Shown piece by piece: positions 772 to 30,237 of a stretch of 64,000 nucleotides of DNA. The stretch's first letter is position 1; each line of letters opens with the position of its first letter. The notes under the pieces are model-generated. The model did no database searches. It was given only the letters and a program-made list of their open reading frames with translations, and was not told the DNA's origin. The DNA comes from Daedaleopsis sinensis (lineage: Eukaryota; Basidiomycota; Agaricomycetes; Polyporales; Polyporaceae), in NCBI GenBank assembly GCA_033807695.1, contig CM066302.1:2294001-2358000 (forward strand), read 5' to 3'. The position numbers and the translations under genes were made by a program.

Positions 772-1932
772 ATCATCGTGCTAACCATTGTCGTGCTAAG
801 GATATTGCGCGAAGCTTAGGGGCACAGTACGATCTGTTCTACGACTCAAGTAGTTATAACTTATAATTAGTACCCACGCTCTCACTTCACATTAACCACT
901 TTCTCTCAAGTCAATACAGCCGGTGAACACACGAGGTCGATCGCGTTGCCGTAGCGGAATAAACTCCACAACCCACTTGAAGGTAACTATATGAATCCCT
1001 CGCTCGCCTTCCATGCGTCGTAGTACACTTCAAGATGGTCCAGCAAACCGCCCTTACGTGGACGCCACCCAAGCAATGCACGTGCTAGGTATGGCCGAAG
1101 GATAGCGTTCGTCGTCAACGCCGCTTCGAAGACTATTTGACAGAGAGTTAGTCAATCGAGAGCCGGTAATTCGAGGAACAGTACTCACGATTAGAAGGCG
1201 GTACATAGCTATACCCCTTTGCGCCTGAGATCTCAACCAGCTTCTGCAGGACCGCATCCGTACTCTCATTGACGTCGTTTGTCGCATCGATGATCTGTCC
1301 TCGAGCAATGGCAGCCTTCTCCGCAGCGAGCAGGTACACCTCCGCGAGGTCATCACAATGGACGAGCGACAGCCGTCCACCGGGGGAGCCGAACCACTTT
1401 ACCTGGCCTTCGTATGCGCTCTTGAACATGATGGCGAAGAGAGATGCCGAGCGGCCGTATAAGAGCGACGGGCGGATGACTATACCATTGAGGTGAGGGT
1501 TCGTCACGACCTTCTGCTCTTGCGCGGGGCGCCATGCCACCAGCTCGGTGGGGTTAGAGAGCGGGGTGGTGTCGGAGATGATTTCGTTCGGATGGTTGCC
1601 GTGAACCCATGTCCCGGAGGTGTAGATGTAGGTTAGCTTGGGAGCGTCCGGAGCGCGCTGTTCTAGAGCTGCCTGAGCGGTAGCAGAGAGGAGATTGGCG
1701 GAGAGGGTCTTGACGTCGCTACCTCCGACGGCGTCTACGACCGCATCGAGGGTCGTGATGAGGTGAAGAAATGACGACGTATCATTGATGTCCGCGACAA
1801 CAGGAATGACTATGGCATGGATGTGGAGAGTCACATCAGAGCTCGAGAGTTAGAGCTGTTCGGGAGTAGTCAGAACTCACTTTCTTCCTGCCTGAGCTGC
1901 TTCGCCTTTGCTTCGGATCTCGTTTGGCCATA

Positions 1933-1949
1933 CATCAGCAAAAAGTCGG
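1933..1949 (+). repeat. Left terminal inverted repeat of the Plavaka element
   Basis: Starts CATCAGCAAA directly after the target TA. It pairs with the right end over about 17 bp with three mismatches. Confidence 0.7.
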
Positions 1950-2080
1950 ATGTCACCTCCTGCAATCTGAGGATTGGCCAAATTGAGCGTGATTGGGCTG
2001 ACACGCGTGAGCGCCAATGTCACGGGTGGGTAGGGACCTAAAGGCACGCACTCGCAAGGTGACAGGGTCCTGGGCTGATG

Positions 2081-2631
2081 TGTTGAACTTGTGGTTAGTT
2101 GTACAGATAGAAGCGTGTTAGACGCTATGGACACAGCCTCATACGATACTTCTCTCGGTTATCTCGCCTTACTTTTTATCTCTCGTTCATTGTTCCCTAT
2201 ATAGCAACTATTGTACTTTCATTGCTTCTCTTCTTCATTTGTCGTTCTACGTCGCTACAGATCACTTCTCCGTGGTCAGATGATCACTCCTTTATTCCTT
2301 CTTTAGATATCTCTTTGTTTCTACTGAGTCAGCTACGCACAGCACGACTCAGCTCACTCCGTTCCTCATGAGTCAGCCTCGTACTGCCTGACTCATCTCG
2401 TCACATGTCTCTCCTCTAGTCGCTTACTCATGCTGCTCCTATACGGTATATAAGGAGGGACTCTTTGGCTCGGACTCCTCAGTCTTTTGCTCACTAACTG
2501 AGGACGCCCTTCCGTGTGTCTCTAGGTACTTGTTCATCTATGCTAAAGTCTTTTGCTCACTAACTGAGGACGCCCTTCCGTGTGTCTCTAGTCGTTGCGT
2601 CTCTTTGCCTTCACAGGTTCAGACTTCATCA
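2081..2631 (+). repeat. 5' LTR of the copia element
   Basis: 551 bp, beginning TGTTGAAC and ending CTTCATCA. It contains a TATA box, a cluster of TGASTCA motifs, and a perfect 45-bp direct repeat (2481-2525 and 2547-2591) separated by 21 bp in the likely R/U5 part. Confidence 0.95.
2325..2453 (+). promoter_or_regulatory. LTR promoter: TGASTCA cluster and TATA box
   Basis: Three perfect TGAG/CTCA heptamers (2325-2331, 2369-2375, 2389-2395) and one near match CGACTCA (2345-2351) lie 50-120 bp upstream of TATATAA (2447-2453). TGASTCA is the known recognition sequence of Gcn4/CpcA/AP-1 bZIP factors. The inference is that this LTR responds to amino-acid starvation or stress. The same array recurs at +5757 in the 3' LTR. 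Confidence 0.6.
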
Positions 2632-2648
2632 GGTTATGAGCCCTGCGC
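2632..2648 (+). other. Primer-binding site matching an internal part of initiator tRNA-Met
   Basis: GGTTATGAGCCCTGCGC directly abuts the 5' LTR. It is complementary to the anticodon-arm region of fungal initiator tRNA-Met (GCAGGGCUCAUAACC), not to a tRNA 3' end. This is the half-tRNA priming known for Drosophila copia. The tRNA sequence is recalled, not searched. Confidence 0.75.
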
Positions 2649-3608
2649 TCTGATCTAGTTGCTAGTCGACATTCGCGCGCAAGTATCCGTCGACCCTCTG
2701 CCCGTGCACTCCCTCCACTCTTCCCTCACTCTTGACTGTGCCCGCCGACATTGCTACCAGGGGGACTTTTCTGCGCTCGTGACGCAGCCCTGAGTGCTTT
2801 TACCTAGCTCTACTAGTTGCTCGCTGTACCAAACCCTTTGTGCTCTCGAGGCATACGGGTTCTTTTGCTATCCCTCAGCCAGGCCTCGCACTTGCGACTG
2901 CCAGCTGTTGACCCGGGGTGTCTATCACCTTTGGACCGGAGGACAACCGTTTGGACCCTCCTTACGATAGTTTGTTTCGGTACTACAGTACTATAGTTCT
3001 TCTGGGCACAGTTGGCGACTTCTACACTGGTTCGTTGGGGATACCGACTCTCTGACTTACTGGTTCACCTCAATAGGTGTTCATCTCTACGTCGTCCTTT
3101 GCACGAGGCACCTCAAACCATCGCGCTTCCCTGAACCTTTCGCTTCGACACTGTGGCGACTCCTGTCGATTGCAGTCACCTCTACCACAGATACGACAAC
3201 GTCCTTGAAAAGGATTACTGCTGGGACGAGTCTGAAAGAGAGTGGTATCCTTGTGAAATTGGACAACCTTGTCCTAACCGATACAACGAGGTTGCTGCTC
3301 CGGACAACGTCAAATTCGACGAAGATCACGAAGCCCCAGCAGAAGGACAAAAAATTGTTGTCACACCACCTCAGACAGCAGTCGTTCCATCTCCTACTCA
3401 AGTCTCCTCTCCCAATCCTACTCAGATCCCTCTTCCTGAAGAAACTTTCGACGAATTAACTCCATTAGTCGAAGTCACTCCTGTTCCACCTCCAACCGTC
3501 GAACCAACTCCTCTTCCTCCAGCTCCTACCACTACTCTTCCACCTCTTCCTGCTTCCAACCTTCTTGCGGACGTTCCTGACGACACTGGTTTTATCCTCT
3601 CGATTGCC

Positions 3609-6600
3609 ATGTCTGAAGCCGGTCTCGAGAAGAACCTCCCGACTCTTCGTGGTCAGGAGGGGTATCGGGAATGGTCTCGTCAAATGATGGGCTATCTCCT
3701 GATGGTCGATGCATGGGAGATCGTCAACGGCACGGAGACTACGCCTACCGATGCCAAGGAGCTTGCTGATTGGAAGAAACGAGATGCCCGAGCTCGGGGT
3801 ATTCTCATGTACAAGACGGACTCGGAGGTTGCGAAGATCTACGAAGGAAAGACCTCTTCCAAGGATATTTGGGATGCCCTCAAAACCACCTACGAGAAGA
3901 CGGACTCTGGACATGCTTTCTCCAAGTTCGAGAAGTTGCTCAATACGCCTAGGTTTAGCGAGTCCAAGCCGATCGCTGACCAGGTGAACAGCTTCATCAG
4001 TGCTTTGAAGGAGCTCACTTCTACTGGTTCGAGCACCTCCATTGCTGAGCATCTCAAGGTTTACTGGTTGTTCTCTCGCATGCCTGATTCCTATCGCCCT
4101 GCCATCTCCACCATTCTTCACACCACTGAGGAGAAGGCCTTGACTCTCGACAACGTCAAAGCGAAGTTGAAGGTCGAGGACTCTCTTCGGGAGACGTCTA
4201 TTGGGCAGGCGAACAAGATCGTCAAGTCGAAGGGCAAGTTCCCTCCTTGCAAGTGGTGCCAGGGTACGAATCATGACCCTAGTCGCTGCTTCAAGAAGTA
4301 CCCTCACTTGAAGGACGAGTTCGATGCGAAGAAGAAGGGCAAGGGCAATAATTCTGGGAATAAGGGGAATGGACAGTCCGCTCAAACCGTTGCTGCTCCA
4401 GCCGGTCTCAATGTATGCGTAGCTAATGCCTCGAGCAACACGATCTCGGCTTCCTACTATGTTGCGGCTCACACCGCTTCTGAGGGACATATTGCGACTC
4501 ATTGGCTCATGGACTCTGGTGCTTCTGAGCACATCACTGGTCAGTTCGACGATTTCATCAGCTTCACACCTTACAAGAGCCGGAAGTACTTCAACACTGC
4601 GAACAGCGGTGACTCCGGACAGGTGTACGGCGAAGGCGAAGGAGTCATCCAAGCCCAAGCCGAAGTCGACGGTCAGCGTACCACTATCGAGCTCAAGAAA
4701 GTCTGCTATGTTCCAGCCGCAGGTCATCTTCGTTTGTTCTCGACTGGCGCCATTGAGAAAGCGGGCAGTTTCCTTTATCAAGGGGATGGAAGAATGAGCA
4801 TCTTCACCTCAAAACCTGTTGGTCAGGTCGCATCAGGATCGACGATCACTGTCGCTGGGAAGAAGGTCATCGAGGCCCGCCATCTTCCAAGTGTCAATCT
4901 TTACATCACTCATTTGTGGATACCCGAGAAGAATCGCTCTGTTCAAGCGGTTCCTAAGTCTCTCCCTCACGATCTCGTTCACCAACGCTGGGGTCATCCT
5001 GGCAAGGAGGCCGTGACACGTATTCCTAAGGCCGTTGAAGGGGTTCCCGATGTAGGACCCGCTTCGGACAAACCTTGCGACGGATGTGCGAAAGGCAAAC
5101 AGCATCGTGCTCCGTTCCCTCCCTCTGACAAACGCTCTGAAGGTCCGTGCGATATGATCCACATGGATTTAGCCGGCCCGATGAGTACCTCGATTGGTGG
5201 TTATAACTACTTCTCTGCGTACGTCGACGACCATTCTGGACTAGCTGTTGCGACGTCCATGAAGAAGAAGTCAGATCAGATCACTGCCTTTAAGGACTTT
5301 AAGGCATGGGCTGAGACGCAGACTGGTCGTAAGATCAGAACCGTACGATCCGATCGAGGAGGGGAATACATGTCCGAAGAATTTCAGGCTTTGCTGCGCG
5401 AACAAGGGATTGAGCACGATAAAACTCTCCCTGGGACACCACAACAGAATGGACGTGCTGAGCGATGGATCCGTACGATTACTGAGAAGGCTTTGTGCAT
5501 GCTTCACTTTGCCGGCCTTTCTCACGGATTCTGGAAACTTGCACTCGACGCCGCCGTTCATATCTATAATCGTCAACCTATGCGTCGCCTCAAATGGCAA
5601 TGCCCCATTACCGTCTGGTCAGGAAAGAAGCCTGATGCTTCCTACTTCCGGGTATTTGGGTGTAAAGCCTACGTTCATGTGCAGAGACAACAAAGAGATG
5701 GGAAGCTCGACCCGAAGGCAGTCGAGATGATCTTTGTGGGCTATGAGCCAGGTTCCAAGGGGTATCGTCTATGGAACCCAGCCTCCCGTCAAGTCGAAGT
5801 CTCACGCGATGTAGTCTTCGACGAGACTGTCTTTCCTGCACGTAAGGACACCGGCAGTCGTCGTTCTACCCCCGACGACAGTCCATTTCCGAACCTCCGT
5901 GATTCAGAGGAGTCTGACGATCAAGTCGACGCTGATGATCCGGACCTTCCTATACCTCCTCCTCCTGACTCTCAAGATGACGAGCCTGCTCCAGTTCCTG
6001 CTCAACCGCAACAACCACCGCCGCAAGCTCCGCCCGCTAATCCTCCTCCTGTAGTCCAAGCACCTCGTCCTGACCACCGTCGCCAACGACATCCTCCTGT
6101 CGCAGAACCCCCTCGTCGTTCTACTCGTGAGAACAAGGGACAGCATTCCAAGCGGAATGAGGACAATGTCTACGGTGATGAACCTCCTGCTCAGATAGAC
6201 AGACGGACGGATGATGATGGACATCAGCGTGAGGCGGAAGCAATTCTATCGTATTTGCACTATTCTCGGTATAAGTCTGGCATTCCTGAACATCATCGGG
6301 ACGCTATGGCTTCGCCGGATGCGGCACAGTGGCAAGAAGCGGAACGTTCGGAGTATGAGTCTCTCATGGCTAACAAGACATGGATCTTGGTTCCTCGTCC
6401 TAAGGACCGAGCCGTCGTCAAGTGCCGATGGGTCTATGATCGCAAGTCTGATGGTCGCTTTAAAGCTCGCGTTGTAGCTAAGGGTTATACGCAAGTCTAT
6501 GGGAAGGACTACAACGAAACCTTCTCACCTGTTGCTCGATTCGAGTCCATCCGGTATCTCTTTGCGCACGCTGCGCTAGAGGACTGGGAGATCGATGCGA

Positions 6601-7826
6601 TGGATGTAAAGACTGCATTCCTGAATGGCGATCTGGACGAAGAGATCTACATGGAGCAACCGGAGGGTTGGGTCGTTCCTGGCAAAGAGGATCACGTTTG
6701 TCTGCTTAAGAAGGCTATCTATGGTCTTAAGCAAGCCTCGCGCCAATGGAACAAGAAGATCCACGAGTCTTTAAAGGAACAAGGGTTCATTCGGACCTAC
6801 TCTGATGCCGGAGTCTACGTATATCGCCGACAAGGGGAGGATTACGTGACAATCGTTGTTCTGTATGTCGACGACCTACTTCTCATGGGTCCTAGTCGCA
6901 AACGGATCGACAACGTCAAGAAAGCGTTAGGCAAACAGTACAAGATGACGGACTTAGGTCCGCTTCAACGATTCCTTGGTCTACGTGTACGTCGAGATCG
7001 TCACTCGCGGACTCTTGACATTGACCAGGAAGAGTACATCGATGCCATTCTGGAGACCTATCAGATGGTGGACTGCAAGCCTGCGCGCACTCCTCTTCCC
7101 GCTGGAGCTCTTCTAGTCCAAGCTACAGTGGAAGCATCGGCATCTCTCCTCAAGCGTTTCCAGAGTCTACTAGGCAGTCTTCTCTATGCCTGTCTCGGAA
7201 CGCGACCGGACATCTCCTTTGCCATCAGCCGTCTAGGCAAATATGCTGCGAACCCTTCGGACGAACATCTCACCTACCTCTTCTACGTTCTCCGATATCT
7301 CAAGGGTACAAAGCATTACTGTATACGCTATGACGGTTCAACCGACGCTGGTTTGATCGGCTACTCCGATTCAGACTGGGCTGAGGATCGGGATGATCGG
7401 CATTCCCAAACTGGCTTCGTCTACCTGATGGCTGGTGGAGCAGTCTGCTGGACGTCTCGTCGACAGTCTACTGTTTCGCTTTCTTCTACTGAAGCGGAAT
7501 ATAAGGCGTGTTCGGACGCCAGTCGTCAGATGATGTGGCTAAGGACCTTCGGCGATGAGATTGGGGACGACATCTCTTCTGCAACACCTCTGTGTATCGA
7601 CAACCAGGGTGCTATCTTCCTTGCAGATAACCCGTCCGTTGACCGAAGGACCAAGCACATTGAAGTGCGCTACCACTTTGTACGGGAGTACATCGAAAGT
7701 GGGAGCATGGACATCTTCTATGTTGAGTCGAAGAAGAACTTGGCAGACACCCTGACGAAGAACGTCTCCTTCTCTATATTGGAGTACTTTGTTAAGGAAT
7801 CTGGTCTTGTTACTTCCGCGTCTTGA
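3609..7826 (+). CDS. Copia Gag-Pol polyprotein
   Basis: A 1405-residue frame counted from the first in-frame ATG (3609). In order: a UBN2/gag-like region with LRGQEGYREWS; a CCHC zinc knuckle (4248-4290, CKWCQGTNHDPSRC); an aspartic protease with DSGA near 4513; a GAG-pre-integrase HHCC finger (about 4978-5090); an integrase core with MDLAGP, SDRGGEY and TPQQNGRAE; a long Pro-rich linker (5930-6110); reverse transcriptase with FSPVARFESIR and YVDDLLLMG (about 6865); and RNase H with SDSDWAED, SSTEAEY and the LADTLTK tail. Integrase before RT defines Ty1/copia. The same frame is open upstream to 3135 without any ATG, adding about 158 Pro-rich, coding-like codons; the real N-terminus may therefore use a non-AUG start or a spliced leader. 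The leader between the primer site and 3135 shows no other gene. Confidence 0.93.
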   Translation: MSEAGLEKNLPTLRGQEGYREWSRQMMGYLLMVDAWEIVNGTETTPTDAKELADWKKRDARARGILMYKTDSEVAKIYEGKTSSKDIWDALKTTYEKTDSGHAFSKFEKLLNTPRFSESKPIADQVNSFISALKELTSTGSSTSIAEHLKVYWLFSRMPDSYRPAISTILHTTEEKALTLDNVKAKLKVEDSLRETSIGQANKIVKSKGKFPPCKWCQGTNHDPSRCFKKYPHLKDEFDAKKKGKGNNSGNKGNGQSAQTVAAPAGLNVCVANASSNTISASYYVAAHTASEGHIATHWLMDSGASEHITGQFDDFISFTPYKSRKYFNTANSGDSGQVYGEGEGVIQAQAEVDGQRTTIELKKVCYVPAAGHLRLFSTGAIEKAGSFLYQGDGRMSIFTSKPVGQVASGSTITVAGKKVIEARHLPSVNLYITHLWIPEKNRSVQAVPKSLPHDLVHQRWGHPGKEAVTRIPKAVEGVPDVGPASDKPCDGCAKGKQHRAPFPPSDKRSEGPCDMIHMDLAGPMSTSIGGYNYFSAYVDDHSGLAVATSMKKKSDQITAFKDFKAWAETQTGRKIRTVRSDRGGEYMSEEFQALLREQGIEHDKTLPGTPQQNGRAERWIRTITEKALCMLHFAGLSHGFWKLALDAAVHIYNRQPMRRLKWQCPITVWSGKKPDASYFRVFGCKAYVHVQRQQRDGKLDPKAVEMIFVGYEPGSKGYRLWNPASRQVEVSRDVVFDETVFPARKDTGSRRSTPDDSPFPNLRDSEESDDQVDADDPDLPIPPPPDSQDDEPAPVPAQPQQPPPQAPPANPPPVVQAPRPDHRRQRHPPVAEPPRRSTRENKGQHSKRNEDNVYGDEPPAQIDRRTDDDGHQREAEAILSYLHYSRYKSGIPEHHRDAMASPDAAQWQEAERSEYESLMANKTWILVPRPKDRAVVKCRWVYDRKSDGRFKARVVAKGYTQVYGKDYNETFSPVARFESIRYLFAHAALEDWEIDAMDVKTAFLNGDLDEEIYMEQPEGWVVPGKEDHVCLLKKAIYGLKQASRQWNKKIHESLKEQGFIRTYSDAGVYVYRRQGEDYVTIVVLYVDDLLLMGPSRKRIDNVKKALGKQYKMTDLGPLQRFLGLRVRRDRHSRTLDIDQEEYIDAILETYQMVDCKPARTPLPAGALLVQATVEASASLLKRFQSLLGSLLYACLGTRPDISFAISRLGKYAANPSDEHLTYLFYVLRYLKGTKHYCIRYDGSTDAGLIGYSDSDWAEDRDDRHSQTGFVYLMAGGAVCWTSRRQSTVSLSSTEAEYKACSDASRQMMWLRTFGDEIGDDISSATPLCIDNQGAIFLADNPSVDRRTKHIEVRYHFVREYIESGSMDIFYVESKKNLADTLTKNVSFSILEYFVKESGLVTSAS

Positions 7827-7828
7827 AC

Positions 7829-7837
7829 GAGTGGGAG
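7829..7837 (+). other. Polypurine tract of the copia element
   Basis: GAGTGGGAG immediately precedes the 3' LTR. It is short and interrupted by one T, but it is in the required position for plus-strand priming. Confidence 0.55.
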
Positions 7838-8388
7838 TGTTGAACTTGTGGTTAGTTGTACAGATAGAAGCGTGTTAGACGCTATGGACACAGCCTCATA
7901 CGATACTTCTCTCGGTTATCTCGCCTTACTTTTTATCTCTCGTTCATTGTTCCCTATATAGCAACTATTGTACTTTCATTGCTTCTCTTCTTCATTTGTC
8001 GTTCTACGTCGCTACAGATCACTTCTCCGTGGTCAGATGATCACTCCTTTATTCCTTCTTTAGATATCTCTTTGTTTCTACTGAGTCAGCTACGCACAGC
8101 ACGACTCAGCTCACTCCGTTCCTCATGAGTCAGCCTCGTACTGCCTGACTCATCTCGTCACATGTCTCTCCTCTAGTCGCTTACTCATGCTGCTCCTATA
8201 CGGTATATAAGGAGGGACTCTTTGGCTCGGACTCCTCAGTCTTTTGCTCACTAACTGAGGACGCCCTTCCGTGTGTCTCTAGGTACTTGTTCATCTATGC
8301 TAAAGTCTTTTGCTCACTAACTGAGGACGCCCTTCCGTGTGTCTCTAGTCGTTGCGTCTCTTTGCCTTCACAGGTTCAGACTTCATCA
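7838..8388 (+). repeat. 3' LTR of the copia element
   Basis: 551 bp, the same length and apparently the same sequence as the 5' LTR, including both copies of the 45-bp repeat. It is followed by the TGATG duplication. Confidence 0.95.
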
Positions 8389-8574
8389 TGATGCGCGTAT
8401 ACGGGGCGGTGAATTGTATTGTATCGTGGTGCTACGTGAAGCTGCCCAGTTGAGGGGGTTGGGCAGCCATGAGAGAGGTGTTGGTGGACACTATCGAGTC
8501 CTGAGCGCCCGAGAGGTAGGTGATGACTCTGCGGAAACTTTCGGAACGATATATGGGATAGCACAATGTATTAC

Positions 8575-11500
8575 TTAGTACACGTTAAACTCGGTGCTGT
8601 CCAATATGTCGCCATCATTGTCAGCGGCCTCGGGCTCGTCATCGACATCTTCCAGCTCGAATTCACCAGCATCCCCATCATGATCATCCACGTCGTCGCC
8701 ATACTCAGACGACACATAACCATAGTCCATCAGCTCATCCTCATCCACCGCATCGTCATCCTCCCCAGCCTGGTTGTCATCGCAATCATCGTCGTCGGTG
8801 CAGTCCATGTCGAATGTGCCATCGGGACTGACAGTGGCACCTAACGAGGGCGCGGCCTTGGGCGCGACACCTGTGCGGGCGGTGCTGTCGTGTCGGACGT
8901 CGCGTTGGTGTCCTATACCATCACCGAGGTATCGTATGAACATGTCTCTGTCGACAAAGCTGTACAAGTCCCAGTTAGTCATTATGTAGTAGCGGGCCAA
9001 TTAACCACAAGGTGGAACACTCACAAGTTCACGTAATGCGACCGCCATTCCTCATGTTCTTCATCGCCCCTGTCCGACTCCGAATCGGTGTGGCGGTCGT
9101 CAGCGTCGGCGATCGTTGGCGTGCGATATATGGTCTGAGTCCCGTAGGCGAATGCAGGTATCAGATGTGTGGCGCGCAGGATGTGCTTGGGGTCTACAAA
9201 ACCAAAGGCGCCGTCATCGGGATTTGCCCATCGCAGACGGTGGAGCCGACACGCGGCGAAGCCACCCGCAGCGGCGGTGTCGATGTCGAACCATCTGACC
9301 CACAGGACATGCTCCCGTTGCGGCTCAGTGTCGTCAGCACCGGACATATCCTCTCCAGCATGGTAAACATTGACGTGGAAAATTCCAAGCACGCGGGCGT
9401 AGAGGAATGGGTGGCCTGCTGAATCGGAATACATCATAACGTCGGGGTGGGTGCTGGGGTTAACCGAGTCTTGGTCTCGGCGCATGTCGTATGTGGTATA
9501 GTTGATACGAAGGGTCTTGTGCGAGTAGATCCTGTCCAAGCGGATCCGAACTGTGTTCAGATCGGCAGAGCTAGGTTCGTATCCCTCCGGAAGGTTTTCC
9601 CCGCCAGGGAGCCTTCGGAGCAGGTGCCCCTTGAGTAAATGGAGGAAATTACCGCATGCGACATCTGCGGCATTGTCGACAAGGAACTGGTGAAGGTCGA
9701 CGTGGTTGCGTTGGTCCTCGGAGATTTGGAACGGTAGATCGGCGGGTGCCGAAGGGAGTGGCTCATGCGATGCGGTTGTGAGTCGAACAGGTTCGAAACC
9801 CCTCTTACGTTGGGCTTGTTTGGGTTTGCGAGGTTGTTTGCGCGATTGGACGTTGCACCCGATCTTGTGTAGTACATGCTGGCGTCGCGTCTCTTGAGCG
9901 ATTTGAGCAACGAACTTCGCATTCTTGTTGGTCCGCGCATAGAACTGCTTCGGTCGGCGGTGCTCAAGCTCTCCCTGGTGAGTTTGACTACAAGTCAGCC
10001 TCGGCGCTTGTGATATGTTAAATCTGCATCGTACTCACCGTCTGCGAGGTGAAATTATCCGAGGTTCCAAACATTCGGATCGCGCGCACATAGTCCCCCA
10101 GACGGTGCCACTTGTAGGTCAAGAGGTTGAAGACCTTCTTCGTAACTGAGGTCTTCTGCGCCGGTCTTGAAGTGGCTGCACCCGGAGGATTTGCAGCAGC
10201 TGTGGCGACACGAGCTTGACGTGCTTGACGGTGCTGCGTCTCTTTCGGTAGCTCCCTTGTCTGATAAAGGGGGCACACCTTCTTCAAGAAGGTTCGCATT
10301 GCGTCACCTAGCGCACGGGTGGCGGTGTCGAATGTCGTGAGCGTTGACTCAGAGTGAAGGCGGAGTTTCGCAAGGGCGTGCCAAGTGGCCAGCCTGAAGA
10401 GCATTGTGAGGATATACGTGTTCACGGGCTCGGGCAGCAGGTCTTCAAAGACAGGAATAGCACACTGCAGATCAAAATCAGCATTGCTCGAGCGGGACAG
10501 CTGATTGCCACGTACCTGGAGCATCTGCTCGAAATCGCGCGCGGCGAGTTTCTTCATTGCAGAAACATTGCGTCCAAATCGTCGTATTGTTCGTCGCCCG
10601 AACATCGGTACCATCGCAAATCTGTCCGGACGTTCATTATACGTCAGCACTGGCCATTCCTGAGAGCACTGTGGTGCTTTACCGTTCATCGAGGGTTTGG
10701 ACTACATTCCCTCCGGCTGCAATCAAAATCCGGACGAGATGGGTGAACGTGCTTTTCCAGACGCCGAGTTCGAACTCGTGCATCAGGTCAGGCACGAAGA
10801 GATCGTAGACTCGTTGTCCATACTCGGCGAAACGTATGGAAAAGGCACTCTATGTACATTGCATCAGCTAGATTACACGTTGAATGATGGCAACATATGA
10901 TTAACCTACCCGTGTGGGATTCGCGGACATCTGCCCCACTGGGGTCTTCTTGATCGTATCGCTGTCTGGCGCGGTTCCTGTCTTGAAGATCCAGCCACGG
11001 ACCTTCTCAATCCACATGTGCGTGCGCTGGTCGTCATGGCGAGGTCGCTGGGTGCGGCGGGCAAGATCGCGAGCGGTACCCATGTCCACGAGGTCCCGCT
11101 TTTCGACTAAGCAGTCGGGACACGGACAGTTAGCTAGCTGCTTTAGACATGCGATGAGACACCTGTTAGCAAAGCGAGCAGTGAGTCAGCGCATGGTAGA
11201 GGAGACAGGGCAAAACGGAACTGATTGGCAGCGAAACGTACTTTTCGGGATAGTCAGCAGAGTACGTGAAGATTCTCGGAAAGACACGGCGGATAACACC
11301 GTCCCCACACTTGATCAGCATTCCGTGGCGGAACGCATGCATGAAGTCTTCATCCAAAAGGAGGAGCCATATTTTTTGCATCAGGTCTTGTTTGAGAAGT
11401 CGAAGTGTCGCGGCTGATGGTGGCTGTCCATACACCTTCATATATGCTTCGTGAACGGCCGTAGTGGATAGCTACATATGGTCAGTTAGTACAGCACTGC

Positions 11501-12990
11501 ATACATGAAGGGGGGACGCGCTCACAGAGGGGACATACGCTCGGAGATGATGGGCTGCGAACATGCTCGGTTTGAGGCGTAGGTACTTGGTAAGGTTGCC
11601 GAACCAGACGTAGACGGGCCATAGCGATGCAGTCCCGAAGTTGGTCAGATGTGTCGAGTCAGAGTACACCATGATCGGCGCAAGGACGTATTCGACGTCG
11701 TCGGCGTCTTCACGGTGGCGCGGCTGAGCCTCGAGTTTTGCATGCTCGATGTTCATGGCCTCAGAGTTGTATAGTTCGGAGTAGAGTCGTTCTTGTGCTG
11801 GCGGTGTGTCGGCTGAAGATGGCAGGGTGTGCAAGAGCGTGAACGGAATCCAATGATATCGATTCGCGATTGCGTCCTCACAAGCCTCGCGGATCAAAGT
11901 TGTGAATTTGCGTAGCCAGATGCCAGTGACTGGGAAGATTGGTGCGGCCGACTCGGATGGGTGTGAGACCTTCTCCTTGGGCAGTCGGAGGTCCACGGTA
12001 GCCTCGTGCCACCCGTCGTCACCGCGGAGTGTCTTTGAGGTCGAGGTCGAGAAGTCATCCAGTCGACGCTGCTCGCGATCGACACTAAAGCCCTCCAGGT
12101 CGGCCTTCTCGAACTCAGGCTGATTGATCACATCGGTGACGAGCCTTTGCAATTCACCTTTCGACTTCGTGTTAGACCCTGAGTACTGCCATTCCATAAG
12201 TTTGAACGTGGTCCAATTCAGAAATGGAGCATAGCTCTTGGCGGCTACGTTCCTGGCGTCTCGGGCGTATGCTGCGAACGTTCTCCCGAAAGGACGCAGC
12301 GGCGATGAATCCTCGGGCGCTGCAGGAGGTCGCATGTGTGTTGAAGAGTTGACAAACTCGTGCAGAGGGAGGGCTTCCTCTGGGTCGTGCACCGGGGCTT
12401 TCGCGTACCGGCGAAAGAGGCCAAAGCGGTTTACGGGGGTCTCGACTGGAGGCGGCTGCATATATAGTGGTGGTGGGGGGGGTGGATAGTCGTCTGGTGC
12501 ATCGGGTATCTCCTCTATGGAAGGGGGAGGGGGCTTCTGAGCTACTGGAGGTTGGGGTGGCGGGCGGGGAATGTGTGCTGGCAAGCCACGCAGCGACGTA
12601 GGTACCATGTCTCTGACGCGTGACGGGGCTCTATGCTGACGCCCCGAGCGACTGGTAGTTGTGGTCCAAACAGGTTGTGACGCGAGAAGGTCTGCCTGCA
12701 ACATGAACCGATATTGTGAGCACAACAGCTGGATCTGGTATGAAACCTGAAACTCGTACCTCGAGCCTGTCGCGTGCCTCGGCCTCAGCCCGCTCCTTGT
12801 CGGCTGCTACCTTTTTCTTCTGCTCCAGATCCAAACGAATCTTCAATGCTGCAGCTTGCCGGGCATTCTCGCGATGGTCGACGTGGCGTTGTAGGTTGGA
12901 ATACAGGCGGTGAGCCTTTTTGCACGTCAGTTGATGTTCACTAAGTCGTTCAAAGGCTTTTCCGCAGCCGTTGCAGGCTGTCTTGACCAT
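8575..12990 (-). CDS. Plavaka-family transposase
   Basis: A DNA transposase of the Plavaka family, known in agaricomycete genomes. The ATG at 12990 starts a protein beginning with a Cys2-His-Cys-like finger (CNGCGKAF...H..TC). A coiled coil follows, then a Pro-rich stretch with PPPPPPLYMQPPP, and then the conserved core: FGLFRRY, WQYSGSNTKS, YSELYNSEAM, YSDSTHLTNFGTASLWP, KIWLLLLDEDFMHA, FTYSADYPEK, CPCPDC, IRRFGRNVSAMKKLAARDFEQ and ATWHALAKLRLHSE. The C-terminal third contains VLWVRWFDID and a long acidic Asp/Glu tail. At least six exons are visible, e.g. 12990-12760, 12695-11526, and 11471 onward. I saw no internal stop or frameshift in the coding frame, and I could not assign the catalytic DDE residues by eye. 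The stop is at 8575, about 180 bp from the nested copia LTR. Confidence 0.85.
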
Positions 12991-13341
12991 CACAAGGACA
13001 AGCAAGAGGAAGAGTGCCCAATACACCCGCATACTGACGGCGGCAGCACTGTAGATAGAGATGAGAGACAGGACCAAGGCCCGGGAGGTCGAACGTGCGA
13101 AGTCCAACCTTCGCTTGAGCTAGCAGGGAACGGTCACGTGTCAGATCCAGCTTCATCGCCGAATTTGGCAACTCAGACGCCGAATTTGGACGAGCAGCAT
13201 GAACTCCGCCGAGGCTTCTACGCTCGACTCCACCTCGCACACAAAACCTCCATTTTCCCCTTCGCCTCTCGATGTCTCTTTCCCTCTGTCTACCACCTCC
13301 CTACTGCCACAGTGCCTCCGTCGTTCGACACCGACAGCGCC
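12991..13341. promoter_or_regulatory. Bidirectional promoter of the Plavaka element
   Basis: 351 bp separate the start codons of the transposase (minus) and the companion gene (plus). No clear TATA box was seen on either strand. The arrangement implies co-regulated divergent transcription. Confidence 0.5.
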
Positions 13342-15837
13342 ATGCCTGCCAACAAAACTAAGGGGGCACAGAAGGCAACGGTCCCGTAAGCATATCCCCT
13401 GTAGTAGCCGACTATATGCGCATATAGTCATCACCCTCTCCATAGAAACCCGACCTCAGCTCCTCCCAGGTCGCATCACCCTGCTGTGACGTCTCAGCCT
13501 GCAAAAACACCTCACTCAAGGCCTCACCATGAATCGTCTCAGGCCACTCACCGCAAGACAAAACATAGCGACCCATCGAAGCCAGCTTATGACCAAAAGA
13601 AGCATGAAGCCCTTCAGAGCAAGATCCGTGAACTTCAGGCCCTCGAACAAAACCTGGACAGACTGCAAGCACACTCAGTCCGGGCGTCTGACTCAGCCTC
13701 TGCCTCTCGTCCCCACGTCACCCCACCGGCGAGTACCCCTTCCCGCAGTCGTTCGCGTCAACCGAGCGGACCTCCACGTCGCAGTTCCCGTTCAGCAAGT
13801 CCTGCTCGTCGTCGTCCCCCCCCAGCCATAATCCCAACCACCCCTCGCGAACATCCCTTGCCCAGTACCGCACGTCGTGAGCCGCATACACCCGTGTCCG
13901 GTGATCGTGCTCGCCCACCGTTGCGCGAGGACGGAACCCCCACCTCTAATGCCCAAGCCCTCACCTTCGCACAGGCAGAGCTGGCAGAGATGGACGACGA
14001 CGAGGAAGCAGACTACACCGACATGGACGAAGACGACTTTGGGGGTGACGCCGGTGACGAAGAAGCCCCCGTCGAAGCTGACGCCGACGATATCACTCCT
14101 GCGATGTTTGAGCAGCTCATTCAAGAGTTGCGCGCCGCCAAGAAAACACGTCATCGCATCCAGTACTAGTCTGCCGTCCAGTTCACCTCACCTCACACGC
14201 TGAGTTTTTCTTCACAGATCTTCGAACTCCACCGCAGAGTTCCTCAAGCACCTCGCACGTCGGATTGCACGTTTCCTGGGCCCACATGTGCTGTATGGCG
14301 CAATGATTACCACCGGACTGTCAATCATGGCATTAGGCCCCATGGACAAGAAGGAACGCAAGAGCCGGATCAACGTCGTCGCGCGCTACAGGTATGAACA
14401 TTCACCACATTCCCCTCCGATCCTCTAACACCCCATAGTGACACCAAGACCGCCAGTGAACACCTCAGTATGTTCGAAGACCTATGCCAGTCGTTCCCAT
14501 TCTTCACATCTCTCCTTCCCTACCTCGTCAAAGACAAGCGCGTGAAGACAATGCAGGTCTTCACCATTGCAGCATTCGTAAGCAATGTAACCCTATGGCC
14601 TGAACACTAACAACTTATTCAATTACAGATCAAGCACCATGCCAGCGCCGCGCGATCGTCAGACCTCAATTCCATCCTATCCGCCCTGCACAAGTTTCTG
14701 CCGACCGCCACTACGATCCACGGCCAGGTCATCCCACCTCTGCCGGCCGCACACTGTATCAAGAGCCGGAACTTCGGCTACAACTCAATGTGCACCGGAC
14801 GTCTTTCGACTCCTATAGACCGAGTCGACGATTTCGATAAGGACCCGCAGGCGTAAGTAGAGATGTGCGACGCGCGCGTGTCCATCTGACACTCGCTCCC
14901 GCAGGTTTTGCAACCGCATGACTACTACCTCAGCTGCTCGCGCTCTCGCGCTCGCGCGTGCCCGGAAGACCATGCCCGCTTACCTGTTTCAAGACGATCT
15001 GTTGGGCAGATACGACAGCGCCAACCCAAGCAAGGGCGCCTTTAGAAGCCAGTTGCTCGTTGATGTACGCGTTTTCTCACATGATAGTGCCCCGCGCTGA
15101 CGCCTTATTGTAGATATTCAGACATTTGATGACTGGGCCGAGTTCCGCTCTAGCTCCTCCCGGAAACCAAGGGAACGGTCGCGCGACTTTGTCGCGCAAA
15201 TGGCATCTCACGCAGGTCGTTCCAGAAAACCTTGCCTATGTGGCCTGTTTGGTGAGCTAAAGTCGCCCCTCCCGACGCCCGTGTCATCGCTCATCTTTAA
15301 CGCTCCTCTCCAGCTCGCATTCATACTCTCCGACGAGGCTGAGTGGACCAGCACGGACGCGGGAGGACTCAAAAAAGCGCTGTACGAGGTTATCCTCACG
15401 TTCTTACGTGTGGAGCACGAAGACTTCATCACCGCCTCCGACTTCGATATCGAGGACGAGACAGGCACCGACCGCGAGAACCTGTTCGCATGGTGGAATC
15501 GGTATGATCTTCAGCCGCTCTCGAATCCTTAAACTAACCCCATGGCTTCAGATGGGTGTACGGCAGCGCCGCCGGTGACACTCACTTCCTCGGTGACTTC
15601 TTTGCCAACGACGAACGCTTCGAAGAGGACCTCCCGGACATTCGGTCTCGTATTCTCGAGGATGCCACGACAACTTGCGACGCCAGGCGCCGCGACCGGG
15701 AGGCGCGCCGCGAGAATCGCGACCATGTTGCGCCTCCACCCCCCGCCGGGCCTACCTCACGCGAGTCATCCCGGGCACCCGATCAGCAGGACCAAACCCA
15801 GGGGTCCCGCTCGCCTTCTATCCATAACCCCGAGTAG
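13342..15837 (+). CDS. Plavaka-associated protein of unknown function
   Basis: A nine-exon gene inside the Plavaka inverted repeats. Exons: 13342-13385, 13470-14162, 14218-14391, 14439-14577, 14629-14852, 14905-15064, 15114-15251, 15314-15501, 15552-15837. They sum to 2046 nt, exactly 682 codons, which supports the model. The first 250 residues are disordered: basic Arg/Ser/Pro-rich, then strongly acidic. A coiled-coil-like helix (KIRELQALEQNLDRLQ) lies near the start. The centre looks folded, with RFLGPHVLYGAM, SIMALGPMDKKERKS and KHHASAARSSDLNSIL; the C-terminus is Arg/Glu-rich and basic. I know of no domain for it. Its place in the element suggests a role in transposition, such as DNA binding, an accessory transposition factor or a counter-silencing factor; this is inference only. 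Confidence 0.8.
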
Positions 15838-16297
15838 TACGTTGACGCCCCCCATCTTTGCTCTTCATGACAGTGTTCTCCTGCAAGTGCCATCGCCATG
15901 CTCTGTGTCGTTCGAGTAGTAGTGTTTTCCTACCTGTACATGTACTACTTACATCACTTGCTCGACTAAATACATTGTGACTCCGCTGCAATGTGCGTGA
16001 TCGTGCCGTGTACTGAAATATATTATATGAATGGCAATAATATATCCATCAGTTGCCCTAGTCCTACTCGTTACCAGGCAATACCCCGTAACATCCTGAG
16101 CACAACGATCCCTTATCCAGGGGCCAATCACGCGCGTATATAAGCCGGTGCGCGAGGGATTGCTGGAATTGCGCTGCCACCCCGTCCCCATGCCTGGATT
16201 GGGCGCGCGCGGGTCAGTCACAGAGGCAGCGCAAACTCAGCCCTCGTCTGTGCTGCATTGTCCGCATCGCGCGGCATCGCGCGTACGCGCGATGCTA

Positions 16298-16314
16298 CCG
16301 TCAATTTGCTGATG
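16298..16314 (-). repeat. Right terminal inverted repeat of the Plavaka element
   Basis: Ends TTTGCTGATG directly before the target TA. It is the inverted partner of the left end. Confidence 0.7.
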
Positions 16315-16457
16315 TATACAATATGCCCAGCCCGTACGAATGCCTGTGCGACTGGAAAGCCAATGAATCCCGTTGCGCTAATTTTCCAATAGGTAAGTCT
16401 CTAATGGTTAAAGATGTAACCTTAGAGGAAGACCCACCCAAGAATCAGAACTTTCAT

Positions 16458-20035: not shown

Positions 20036-21253
20036 TCACGCAGATTGCGTATCGCCTTGGCTGGACGGAAGCCTATCGTGCACCGGTTGCATGTCAGCTG
20101 CGTAAGTGAGTTTTGTTGAGATCTTGAACTTACGTCTAGGTTTCGCTCTAACCGGATCCAGCTTCTTCGACTCTGTAGTGGTGGTGAGCGGAGCGGGCGG
20201 GCGGGAAGCCGCGCGTCGCCGGGCAGCCTTAACGATCCTGCGATCGCGGAACGCACGATGGTTAACACCACAATCTGCTAAAGCGATGCCTAGGGCTAAC
20301 CTGATCAACGCAGCACGCTCCTCGAAGAAGTCGACTGGACTGGATATCTCATCCTGGCTGATATGCTCGGTGAGGTCGTACCACATATCAACGAGTGGTA
20401 ACAGGCCGGTGTCCTTAGCGTTCCTGCGTAGACTAGCAAGGTCAACAGCCGAGGCGATGGAGTCGACCGAGATTGCGTCTGCATCGCGCTCGCCGCTCGA
20501 ACTTGATTGAGAGCTCTCGTGCGTGGTCCCCGTGCTCGAGTCCTCTAAAGCCGAGAAGCTAGGGTCGGTCGCGCTGCTAGGGGCTGAGGAAACAAAAAGT
20601 GGGGGTTCGAACGGAGGACCGTCCCACTGGAAGCCGTCGGGCCAGATCATCGGCGCCGGCTCCAGGTGAATGGATGGCCCCCCGTCTTTTGCGATCCGGT
20701 CGTTACATGTCTGCCTTGACACGATACGGTCTTCGGAGTCATAGTTCTCTAAAACATCGAGGTCCTCCGGTGCGAGATAGAGAGCGTCGTCTGCGTTCCA
20801 ACCTTCAGCGCAGGCACGGATCCGGACAGTCACACGTGTGCGATACCAGTGGTAGCAGCCGTCGAAGGGGAAATACGGCTCGGGGAAGACAGGTTCGCGG
20901 TCGTGCGGATGGGCCGTATTTGGGAAGATGGGGGTGCACATCGAAGGTTCGATCCCTCGTCTCGGGTCTGGGTGACGGAGAGACGGACCAATGAGGGAGA
21001 CGGAGTAGCAGAACCATGGTTTTGTAGGGAAAGGAAGCGTGACATCCTACGCAGACGAGGTGCATCGGTTTGGGAATGGGGGCTCGCCGCTCAAGGGATA
21101 GTGACTCACCGTATGGATATATGCCAGATAAGACTTCACTTCGATGGATTTTGCAGCTATGATGGCCTCTTCATCGTTGAAGTCGCTCACAGCAGCGGCC
21201 GGGTTCATACGTATGACTCCGTATCTTCTAGAAGTGGGGTAGTAAAGGGTCAT
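20036..21253 (-). CDS. CYHW-family protein, copy 2
   Basis: Four exons: 21253-21110, 21046-20301, 20237-20134 and 20097-20036, totalling 1056 nt (351 residues). Exon 1 carries the N-terminal module RYGVIRMNPAAAV...KSYLAYI. Exon 2 starts LPFPTKPWFCYSV and holds MCTPIFPNTAHP and PYFPFDGCYHW, then a Ser/Thr/acidic linker and LLPLVDMWYDL with EISSPVD. The phase-0 and phase-2 introns match the other copies. This is the most diverged member: the linker is longer, with PPFEPPLF, and the exon-3 tail is Arg/Ala-rich (KAARRRAASRPP), which could be a nuclear or nucleic-acid-binding segment. No signal peptide or membrane helix. Function unknown. Confidence 0.78.
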
Positions 21254-25332: not shown

Positions 25333-26402
25333 TTAACTCTGACCTACAGACAGGATGTGTAGTATGGGCTTACAGTGACAACGGTCAGACTCGATGAGAG
25401 GGTGCATAGGCAGGGGATCATCTAACCGCGCGGCCATTGTCGCAAAATCTTTATCACGACGCTTTCGAGCCTCGGCGATCAACCTACAAAGAGTTGTAAG
25501 CCGGATTGATATGGTATATAACGAATATATGTACAGTACCTCTGCACTGCGTCGTACTCCTCGAATAACTCCTCGGGGCTTGGAATATCCGCCTGTTCGA
25601 GATTCCCTGGCAGATCCAACCACAAATCCACAATCGGCAATGTCTCCCATCTCTCCATATTTCCGCCAAGAAACCCCACGCTCACGAGTGTTCTCAGTAT
25701 GTCGTTCACCGAGTCTGACATGTGTCCATTGTGTTCCTCGATGATCTCGTCTCCGGACATACTGTCACTCCAAGAGCGAGATTGGAAGTCCTCCATATCC
25801 ACGAAGCTCCCTGCATCCTCGTCCAATTGTGGATACAAGTCTGGAAGAGCCTTTCTGATACGGCTGGAGTCATTGTCCATCATTTGCCACATTTTGACTG
25901 TTTCCACGGCTGGGAGTTTGACAGCAACGTCATCGTCGAATCCCCCTTCCCGTCCGCGCACGCGCACATCCATGGAACATTTATCCAAGGACCAGTGATA
26001 GCAGGTATTGAAGGGAAACTCTGGATTGGTGCGCAGTGGCGTGCGTTGAGTCAGATGGCTCGTGTTCGGGTAGATGGGAATGCACATGTCCGGTGTCGAT
26101 CCGGCCTGCAGCTGCGTCGGAAGAAGGCTTGGCGCAATAGCGACTACACAGAAAGGGTACCATGGCCGTCCCGGGAGAGAGAGGGTGAGCTCCTGCAAGG
26201 CACGATATGTGAGTAATGTCGTATACGTGACAAAACAGGCGAAGGTTGTACTTACCTGCTGGATCCAGACCAGATACTTTCTTTCTGGCAGGCGTCGAGC
26301 AGCATCTAAAATGTCGCCATAGTTGTATGGCTCCAGAGTAGCAGTATGGTTCAGTCTCATGACTGCGTACGAGCCACTCATCGGAGAGTGTATTTTGTTC
26401 AT
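25333..26402 (-). CDS. CYHW-family protein, copy 4
   Basis: Three exons: 26402-26256, 26192-25540 and 25483-25333, total 951 nt (316 residues), the same length as copy 3. N-terminal module SGSYAVMRLNHTATLEPYNY...ERKYLVWIQQ. Exon 2 has MCIPIYPNTSHL, PEFPFNTCYHW, VRVRGREGGFDDDVAVKL, the acidic linker and LPIVDLWLDLPGNLEQ with DIPSPEELFEEYDAVQR. Exon 3 has LIAEARKRRDKDFATMAARL. Reading frame and splice sites are intact. Differences from copy 3 are scattered substitutions and compensating small indels in the linker, as in a moderately recent duplicate under some constraint. An in-frame ATG six codons upstream is possible but lies outside the conserved start. Confidence 0.82.
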
Positions 26403-27123
26403 CACAGACAGGAGTTGCAAATCGGGGGGATGCGGTAGCGGCAGTGGGTTCGAGTTACTTGTTCGAATTCATACACCGTCACCGCTCTGGGCTCTTTAAA
26501 CATGTTTATGCATGCAACTATCTGAGAACAAAAGGCAAGTGACAATTAACTCTGCACTGTACCCTTCACCGCTCACATGAACAATAGGACGCGCTCTCAG
26601 CGCACTAGCCTAGGGCCGGATAGGAATGTATGGAAGCCGCACAGTGAGGTTCTTACACAGTGCTCGAGCTCTCCTGAACCCAAGCCGTATCCGAATCCTC
26701 AATGCTTGCACCGTTCGTAGCATGAGCCCTAGAGCCATTCGCCGCTGTGAGTCAGCAAAAGATGAGTACTAATCATTCTGACTACTACTCACCTTTTCGC
26801 TTTGCAGAAGTAGGCGCATCTTGAGCTTGCACGTTCTCCGTTTTGACGACCGCCGCATCGTGTGTCAAGATCATGTCTGTACTATTGTCTTTACTCTCTT
26901 GAAGACGTCGTCGACCTTCCTTGACAAGACTACAAGATGGACGATTTGTGCTCTGCGCCTCATCCGAGGCAAAAATAACTCACTTCACCAAGGTGTCACG
27001 CTCCCTGACTATGTCGGCGGGGTCTGGAATTTCTTCCTGAGGGAGATTCTCTCGAAGGGTTTCCCACAGGTCCACGAGAGGGTAGAGCTCGAAGTCTTGG
27101 TCTGGATCGCCGAAGATTCCCAT

Positions 27124-27511: not shown

Positions 27512-30082
27512 CTATGCTGAGTGAGTGCTCGAGAGTGGAGATAAAGTATGTACGTCTCCCGGAATAGAATTCTCGGGGTTGTGTGTAGGAATGTCCATGT
27601 CCACGTCCAAATCGGCAGGGTTTTCGGGTGAGGAATTGGGAAGCGGGTAATCCTCGAGCGAGATAGGGTGATCAGGCCATGCGTCCATACAGTCTCTGGG
27701 CCGATGCAATATCCAGTTGCGTGACATGCGGGCGACACATTCCATAAGTCGAGATGACCGCTCAGATAATCCACACTGAGCGAGCCACTTCACGATATCG
27801 TCCATGGATGCGTTAGCGACGTTGCCCTCGAAGGTGCGGATATCCTCGGACTTCGCGACTGGGTACCCGCGTAATAAGACTATACGCTCGTAAAGCCCCA
27901 TAACGGAGAACACGCGACATAGAGTGTCCAGAAAAGCGGCCCGCTGCGACGAACTGACTCCCTTATTAGGGGCCACTCGTCGTTGAAGAATGTACCCTTC
28001 GACGAGTCCGAGGCTCGGAACCTCAGTCTCGTTGTGACGATCCTCCCGAAGGAACTTGGGGACGAGGGATGGCTTTGCCGTCCAATACTCCAACCACTTC
28101 TGGGACTCGTCGAAGTGATTCGGAGTAGTTGGGGTATTCCTTGTGTCCCGATGCGGCTTGACGACGATATTCACCTCGCCCTGAGACCGCGGCTTCCAGC
28201 CATTCTTGATCAACGAGAACCCAGGCACTGCCATGAGCTCGCTATTCTCGTCCACCTGCTGGATGATGTGACGGAGGCGGTAGCTCGCGCCGGCTTGTTG
28301 ATCGCTGGCCTCCTTGATGAGGAAGAGCGCAGCCTTGGTTGTCGCCGGAACGTAGGTGCTCCATACATCGGCCAGTTTGGGCTCGGTATCGTACAACTGG
28401 ATTAGGTTCTTTGGCCACGGCGATGCTCCTGACTCCGGCGCATTGTTCGGCCAGACGATCGGTCGCGGAACATGAGTTCGCGCGCGCAATGCGAAAGACG
28501 GTGGTGGATGGTTCGAGCTGGCTACGATCCCTTTCTTTGCCTCCTCGGCCTTCCGCTTGGCTATCCTGTACTGTTTTTTCCCCAGCAGCTTGTTGACCAG
28601 CTTGGGGTCGATGAGCGGGACGTCGGAATCCGCATCGTCAAAGTCGTCTTCGTAGTCGGTGTCCAGCTCGTGGTAGTCGATTTCAAGCACCTGCACTTTC
28701 ACGTTGGAGGACGATGAAGGTTCAGATGTCGTTGAAGTCGTCTCCTGCGGCACATGCACTGGTTCGATAGAGTTTGTGATGCTGGTTGACGCGACGGCCG
28801 ATACGTCTTGCCCCCACGGTTGCCCGAGGTTGTCGACGGTGATGTTGTTCTCGACGATCGGGCCCGTGATCACGTCTTGCGGTTGTCCCCACATTGCACC
28901 CATAGATGCGCTCCCTACCCAGTTGGGAGGTAGCTGCATCATTTCAGACGGTGCGGATGGTGTGGACGCAGGGATGTGAGCGGCGAGTACCGGCGAGTTG
29001 GGAACCATTGGTGTAGCGACGCGGGGTGTTCTTGGATGCGTCGGTGTCGACCGATAGCTCGACGATGAAGGGATCCGAACCACGGGCTCACTTCTGCGTG
29101 AAGGGCCTGCGTGGTCTCGAGGTGCGGCCGGGTGATGTGCCGGAGCGCGACGATCCTCCCTGCGTTCTTCTCGTGGTGTTTCACGATATGAACGGTCCTC
29201 ACGACGATCATCGCGAGCGGGTCGGTCGTTGCGGGGAGGGCGATCTTCACGGTCTCTTCTAGATGGAGACCGCGACCTGTCGCGTCTGGGAGAACGAGAT
29301 CGGCGACGAGATACTCGTCGCAGTTCTTCTTCCAGCCTATCTGCCCTTCTCTTCTGCTCCTCGTATGCCTCCCGTTCCGTTCTGAGCCTCTTCCTAAGGT
29401 CCTCGATGGCCCCTGCTGCCTCCTCAGCCCGACGATGTTCCTTGCCCACCTCGTCACGGACCTTCGCCAGCTCCTCGTTCCTGGTCTTGATCATCGACTG
29501 GAGCCGACGAATTTCTTCGTTGGGCCCCTCCCCCCTCGACGACTGCCATTGTTGGAAGTGGTCGTAGTACGTCTTCTGCTGCTCGGCCCGCGCATTTTCA
29601 TGCGCGGCGACGAACTGGCTGTCGTTCGCCGCTCCCATGAAGTGTTGAAGGAACGAGGAACACGTTGAACACCTCGGGTCGCGGTGTGCCATGACCATGG
29701 CCGTCTTGTCCACACACTCCCATTGGATTATGGGTTGCATGGGCATGAGCGGCGGCATGCCAGCGGGCATCGTCACATTCGTGGGTGGGAGGGAGAATGT
29801 CGGCTGAGGCGGTCCAGCGTATGGGTACGTTGTCGTGGTCGTTCTCGGGTCGACATTCGGGTATGGAAGGGCCGGCTGCATGACCATTGGGTATGGCTGA
29901 CCATAGCCGGTTGTTGTATTGTAGGTAGGAGGTGCGACTGCCTGGAGTGGCATCGCACCTCCCGGCGGGTGTGGGTATAGCAGTGGCATCTGCTGCTGTT
30001 GCTGCTGCTGCTGCTGTTGTTGCTGTTGTTGCTGTTGTTGCTCGTCGACGTTCATGGCGATGTGCGTGGGGTTCGGGTTCAT
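27512..30082 (-). CDS. Third ORF of the chromovirus, unknown function
   Basis: 856 residues from the ATG at 30082, in element sense, 155 bp after the pol stop. Order: a poly-Gln run (about residues 15-32); a Pro/Met/Tyr-rich low-complexity part; a short Cys-containing patch (RCSTCSSFLQHF); a long charged coiled coil (about 188-255); an RS/RD-rich stretch with SRRRSRSPRRDRSRSPSRR; a Ser/Thr/Pro linker; an acidic patch (DYEDDFDDADSD); and a roughly 350-residue C-terminal part that looks globular. There is no signal peptide or membrane helix, so it is not env-like despite its position. RS and coiled-coil parts suggest RNA binding and self-assembly; this is inference. It could also be a captured host gene. 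I do not recognise a family. Confidence 0.8.
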   Translation of the reverse strand: MNPNPTHIAMNVDEQQQQQQQQQQQQQQQQQMPLLYPHPPGGAMPLQAVAPPTYNTTTGYGQPYPMVMQPALPYPNVDPRTTTTTYPYAGPPQPTFSLPPTNVTMPAGMPPLMPMQPIIQWECVDKTAMVMAHRDPRCSTCSSFLQHFMGAANDSQFVAAHENARAEQQKTYYDHFQQWQSSRGEGPNEEIRRLQSMIKTRNEELAKVRDEVGKEHRRAEEAAGAIEDLRKRLRTEREAYEEQKRRADRLEEELRRVSRRRSRSPRRDRSRSPSRRDREDRPPRNDRPARDDRREDRSYRETPREERREDRRAPAHHPAAPRDHAGPSRRSEPVVRIPSSSSYRSTPTHPRTPRVATPMVPNSPVLAAHIPASTPSAPSEMMQLPPNWVGSASMGAMWGQPQDVITGPIVENNITVDNLGQPWGQDVSAVASTSITNSIEPVHVPQETTSTTSEPSSSSNVKVQVLEIDYHELDTDYEDDFDDADSDVPLIDPKLVNKLLGKKQYRIAKRKAEEAKKGIVASSNHPPPSFALRARTHVPRPIVWPNNAPESGASPWPKNLIQLYDTEPKLADVWSTYVPATTKAALFLIKEASDQQAGASYRLRHIIQQVDENSELMAVPGFSLIKNGWKPRSQGEVNIVVKPHRDTRNTPTTPNHFDESQKWLEYWTAKPSLVPKFLREDRHNETEVPSLGLVEGYILQRRVAPNKGVSSSQRAAFLDTLCRVFSVMGLYERIVLLRGYPVAKSEDIRTFEGNVANASMDDIVKWLAQCGLSERSSRLMECVARMSRNWILHRPRDCMDAWPDHPISLEDYPLPNSSPENPADLDVDMDIPTHNPENSIPGDVHTLSPLSSTHSA

Positions 30083-30237
30083 AGTGGTCGACAGTGATGG
30101 TGGTAGTGGAGGAAGAGAGAGAAGGGTCGGTGATCTGACAAGTCCTCGAATTTCTTTCGTAAGCGCGTTAAGCGCCTATTTCCTTTTCCAGCCGATTTTG
30201 ACATATACGCGATCACATGATGTGTATTCATGACGCG

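Follow-up and report, generated by a model that had tools for sequence, protein, structure and literature searches.

At this locus, a gene for an NAD(P)-binding protein has its first exons, and with them its Rossmann loop, far away from the remainder of its coding sequence, which raises the question of what came between the two parts and in which order. The locus lies in a window of 64,000 bp (bases 2294001–2358000 of contig C3), and the assembly searched comprises 51.6 Mb in 24 contigs. An earlier note had described a nest of three layers, with a copia element inside a Plavaka element inside a single, split epimerase-like gene. This nest is real and was borne out here: the two nested duplications, the terminal repeats, the Pfam matches of both elements and the alignment of homologues all agree, and chance is therefore no serious alternative. 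The evidence demonstrates both duplications, the ends of the elements, the unity of the two gene halves and a frame that is otherwise clean.

The most probable reading (≈0.96) is that a Plavaka transposon of the B type (PlavakaB) split exon 2 of an epimerase/dehydratase-like gene, and that a copia element entered the 329-bp noncoding end of the Plavaka. The cut-and-paste transposon would have used a TA within exon 2 as its target, separating the Rossmann loop from the remainder of the NAD(P)-binding host gene. The copia would have integrated, with a 5-bp duplication of its own, in the stretch that follows the transposase stop codon and extends to the left Plavaka terminus, sparing both Plavaka genes.

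The Plavaka Element

The features of the Plavaka element are as follows:

1933–16314, no strand assigned: Plavaka (B type) transposon including the nested copia, 14,382 bp (from the ends, TA duplication and Pfam PF18759)
1933–1942, plus strand: left terminal inverted repeat CATCAGCAAA, the first 10 bases mirroring the last 10
16305–16314, minus strand: right terminal inverted repeat, the last 10 bases mirroring the first 10
8575–12990, minus strand: transposase gene, 1322 aa, 7 introns, open throughout (computed splice model)
13342–15837, plus strand: second Plavaka gene, DUF6698 (PF20414), 695 aa (computed splice model, two boundaries set by eye)

The limits previously given for the element (1933–16314) hold: TA copies lie on either side, at 1931–1932 and 16315–16316, and the ends, CATCAGCAAA...TTTGCTGATG, form an inverted repeat. 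The spliced transposase model matched PF18759 with 93.7 bits (cut-off 26.3; E = 1.7e-26). In the passages on PlavakaB in PMC12730594, the termini are CATCA..TGATG, the duplications are 2 or 3 bp, and C(2)C and H(3-4)H motifs are located between the catalytic residues. With its PF18759 transposase, CATCA..TGATG ends and 2-bp duplication, the element here would be a PlavakaB by those passages. It differs from the published PlavakaB in that the TET/JBP domain is absent from the Pfam matches of both gene models, and in having a second gene, with DUF6698.

When the 8000 candidates sharing most words with the transposase were scored, 36 proved to be homologues, the best of them from Daedaleopsis nitida (66% identity over 73%). 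The Plavaka DNA is single-copy in the assembly, and the longer relatives, at least those among the matches listed, are ≈65–69% identical. Four relatives carry CATCAGCAAA on the transposase side as well, in the fitting orientation. The distance from the transposase core to this end is 8106 bp with the copia and 1793 bp without it, compared to 1778, 1881, 1919 and 1951 bp in the four relatives. Subterminal repeats were looked for as a sign of whether the copia had damaged the Plavaka end, and no repeated 9-mer was found in the left 329 bp of the Plavaka. The right 330 bp contain a GC-rich inverted motif, and the two ends share little beyond the terminal repeat.

The Copia Element

Inside the left end of the Plavaka lie the following features:

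2081–8388, plus strand: copia LTR retrotransposon, ≈6.3 kb, with TGATG at 2076–2080 and 8389–8393 (from the LTRs, duplication and domains)
2081–2631, plus strand: 5′ LTR, 551 bp
7838–8388, plus strand: 3′ LTR, matching its 5′ counterpart at 551/551 bases
3153–7826, plus strand: gag-pol open frame, the putative start being the first in-frame start-like codon (from domain matches)

The two LTRs are thus identical, and the TGATG duplication lies within the Plavaka arm, both as had been claimed. In the copia frame, rve (665–763) lies ahead of RVT_2 (1074–1315). LTRs bounded by TG..CA, a 5-bp duplication and an integrase preceding the reverse transcriptase, the characteristics of Ty1/copia, are all present, and by domain order, LTR termini and duplication size the element belongs to this group.

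Eleven LTR pairs from the assembly were compared, nine of them without any difference (one compared over 423 bp) and two with a single differing base, one of the two having a 1-base gap in addition. The 5-bp duplications are visible at 10 of the 11 paired copies. The nearly identical pairs across the copies indicate that the copia family moved recently as a whole. The LTR described here is 551 bp long, versus 605–608 bp in nine of the ten other paired copies (the tenth being the one compared over 423 bp), and a stretch of 55 bases present in other copies has no counterpart in it. Six other copies on the same strand differ from this LTR at 5–11 of ≈550 aligned bases; for the four minus-strand copies, the LTRs were compared only within each copy. 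A candidate for a second nest, at a Plavaka relative on C11, was rejected, as the element ends at ≈C11:1638948 and the copia starts at 1639934, i.e., outside it.

The LTR also contains a 45-bp tandem repeat with 66-bp spacing (2481–2591). Elsewhere in the window, at 27512–37248 on the minus strand, there are long open frames of 856, 1158 and 1145 aa, probably representing a gypsy-type element, since the 1158-aa frame looks reverse-transcriptase- and integrase-like by eye. Five further open frames (56–634, 20036–20941, 25479–26420, 51886–52653 and 54818–55621) display a pattern resembling M(C/V)xPI(F/Y)PN and, judged by eye, may be a gene family repeated within the window.

Order and Age of the Insertions

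The TGATG copies imply that positions 2075 and 8394 were once adjacent, and the Plavaka therefore predates the copia. To this extent, the sequence of events previously regarded as fixed (gene, Plavaka, copia) stands, but the copia may already have been aboard when the Plavaka entered the gene. In that case, the copia would have entered the Plavaka elsewhere and the 14.4-kb composite would have moved into the gene afterwards, reversing the last two events. Such a jump is conceivable because the copia occupies a noncoding end of 329 bp and the models of both Plavaka genes are open, so that the element could still be mobile; the assembly also has no other close copy of this Plavaka (the next relatives are ≈65–69% identical over long stretches), the state expected after the relocation of a single copy. 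The single-copy state is equally compatible with the original order, however, and the jump requires the movement of a 14.4-kb element, one end of which measures 6.6 kb instead of 329 bp. Furthermore, a left-arm probe (1933–2080) matched only here, and a second Plavaka with a copia at the same point was not found in the assembly; thus, neither a donor nor a sister copy decides the order. We consider the movement of a composite rather unlikely.

All steps had been described as very young. For the copia this is well bounded: with 0 differences in 551 bases, the 95% limit on divergence (K) is <0.54%, or ≈270,000 years at an assumed rate of 1e-8 substitutions per site and year. The Plavaka insertion is more loosely constrained. 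If the host gene has evolved neutrally from the insertion onwards, the lack of any visible change in it caps the divergence at 1.1–1.7% (95%; for an indel:substitution ratio of 0.15 to 0) if conserved residues are counted, and at 2.3–7.8% without the conserved-residue term. The insertions are probably recent. CpG depletion was considered as a clock and discarded: the observed/expected ratios are alike in the copia (0.95), the right arm of the Plavaka (1.06), the 3′ half of the gene (1.11) and the window (1.06), and thus cannot separate the ages, while two 143-bp pieces (0.70 and 0.75) are too short.

The Host Gene

The host gene has four exons on the minus strand, from 16457 to 987:

16438–16457, minus strand: exon 1, with the start codon (spliced join)
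16315–16377, minus strand: 5′ part of exon 2, carrying the Rossmann loop (GATGFIG) and ending in the TA duplication at 16315–16316 (71% match to homologue P0002)
1881–1932, minus strand: exon 2, 3′ part, starting in the TA duplication at 1931–1932 (spliced join)
1189–1809, minus strand: exon 3 (spliced join; assembly search with homologue)
987–1132, minus strand: exon 4, with the stop codon (spliced join; assembly search with homologue)

The joined frame, counting one TA, is 900 nt long and encodes 299 aa plus the stop codon. The introns of the computed splice model are 60, 71 and 56 bp, all GT..AG. The loop lacking from the 3′ fragment had been placed at 16317–16457 on the same strand, and GATGFIG was indeed found there, in the 5′ part of exon 2. 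Joining the halves through a single TA restores the frame across GHIVYGQTRS, which includes the HIVYGQTR previously read at the junction.

The joined exons aligned end-to-end with proteins from Polyporales (e.g., Fomes, Pilatotrama, Cerioporus and Daedaleopsis), the best of which are 69–72% identical, so that the DNA is probably that of a polypore. Among the best 120 of the 397 proteins found, the ten residues around the junction are gap-free in 110 and non-contiguous in 10, including P0005. Median identities to these 120 are 81% for the N-terminal stretch of 27 residues and 59% for the remainder. In 23 of the 25 best homologues, 21–27 of the 27 N-terminal residues are matched; the exceptions are P0007, a partial record (18/20), and P0005, which has a different N-terminus (3/15). 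The Rossmann GxxGxxG loop of the family is present as GATGFIG, and P0002 matches PF01370 (E = 8.8e-13) as well as one solved sequence, the “putative oxidoreductase” 3wj7 (E = 1.5e-4). By these matches, the host protein is predicted to be NAD-dependent epimerase/dehydratase-like (PF01370). A search of the whole assembly with P0002 yielded three matches at E ≤ 0.001, each a piece of the split gene, and exon-3 DNA matched a single place; no paralogue or second allele of the host gene was seen in the 51.6 Mb at this threshold.

An assembly error uniting two unrelated contigs is very improbable, since it would not yield TA and TGATG duplications at the matching ends of the elements, nor a clean frame. 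Even less credible is a coincidental joined frame in which the exons at 16317–16457 belong to a different Rossmann-type gene: such loops are common, but all 27 N-terminal residues match P0002, the body of which is 72% identical to the other gene half, so that both parts lie on one homologue rather than on separate proteins, the join is consistent in frame, length and splice phase, and the terminal repeats and TA copies stop exactly at the break.

Condition and Fate of the Split Allele

Apart from the insertion, the host gene has no stop codon, frameshift or lost splice site, in agreement with the earlier note, which saw no other lesion. It departs at 0 of 68 near-invariant columns (shared by ≥97% of 54 homologues, i.e., the first 60 minus six dropped for length or start). 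Among the 54 controls, 26 likewise show no departure at these columns, 27 show 1–3 and P0005 shows 13. The gene has thus not decayed, although many controls look no different from it.

Reading exon 2 on into the element produces a chimera of 59 residues followed by a stop, and after residue 1 the normal frame has its next methionine at residue 172. The split allele is therefore likely to be null. The gene had also been called perfectly restorable. On paper this is true if one TA is left; if both TA copies are retained, which an ordinary excision would do, the computed frame is lost, with a stop after 69 codons, and the gene is thus restorable only if one TA goes too. Cut-and-paste excision commonly leaves a footprint. 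The parts of PMC9674265 on Marasmius oreades monokaryons describe both insertions and excisions of transposable elements, and the sole Plavaka-related deletion in them is unlike an excision. In the genome of the same fungus, Plavaka is one of the main DNA elements, according to a passage in PMC8290104.

DUF6698 as a Second Plavaka Gene

The plus-strand gene at 13342–15837 matches DUF6698 with E = 1.3e-36. Scoring of the 8000 candidates sharing most words with it gave two homologues, both from D. nitida, on contigs equal in size to those of two transposase matches from the same species. Within the assembly, 44 PF20414 matches fall into 21 loci, and matches to the Plavaka transposase described here into 24. 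Fifteen of the 21 DUF6698 loci lie ≤10 kb from a related transposase (0.2 expected), 12 of them head-to-head and three in tandem; the remaining six are farther away, one at 15 kb. As a control, 66 other Plavaka positions among the PF18759 matches listed, at least one of which (on C10) is shared with the related-transposase set, were within 10 kb of only one of the 21 loci (0.5 expected). The difference between 15 and one indicates that DUF6698 goes with this Plavaka lineage in this genome.

En/Spm (CACTA) is a two-protein element, a layout paralleled by the two genes of the Plavaka here. Plavaka transposases resemble those of En/Spm, according to PMC12730594, the passages of which contain nothing relevant on a DUF or a second protein. 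Neither “DUF6698” nor “PF20414” occurs in the main texts of the open-access papers searched. By analogy with En/Spm, DUF6698 might be a dedicated second PlavakaB protein, usually encoded head-to-head with the transposase and needed for movement, and the copy here might have moved as a copia-carrying composite; as a whole, this proposal is unlikely.

The insertion itself is ordinary, involving known kinds of elements in a well-resolved nest. It does illustrate how a clean gene can vanish from annotation when its first exons are 14.4 kb off, and the nest supplies an exact site for empty-site comparison among strains. More useful than the insertion is the position of DUF6698, which ties a family of unknown function to one Plavaka lineage and thereby gives it a testable role.
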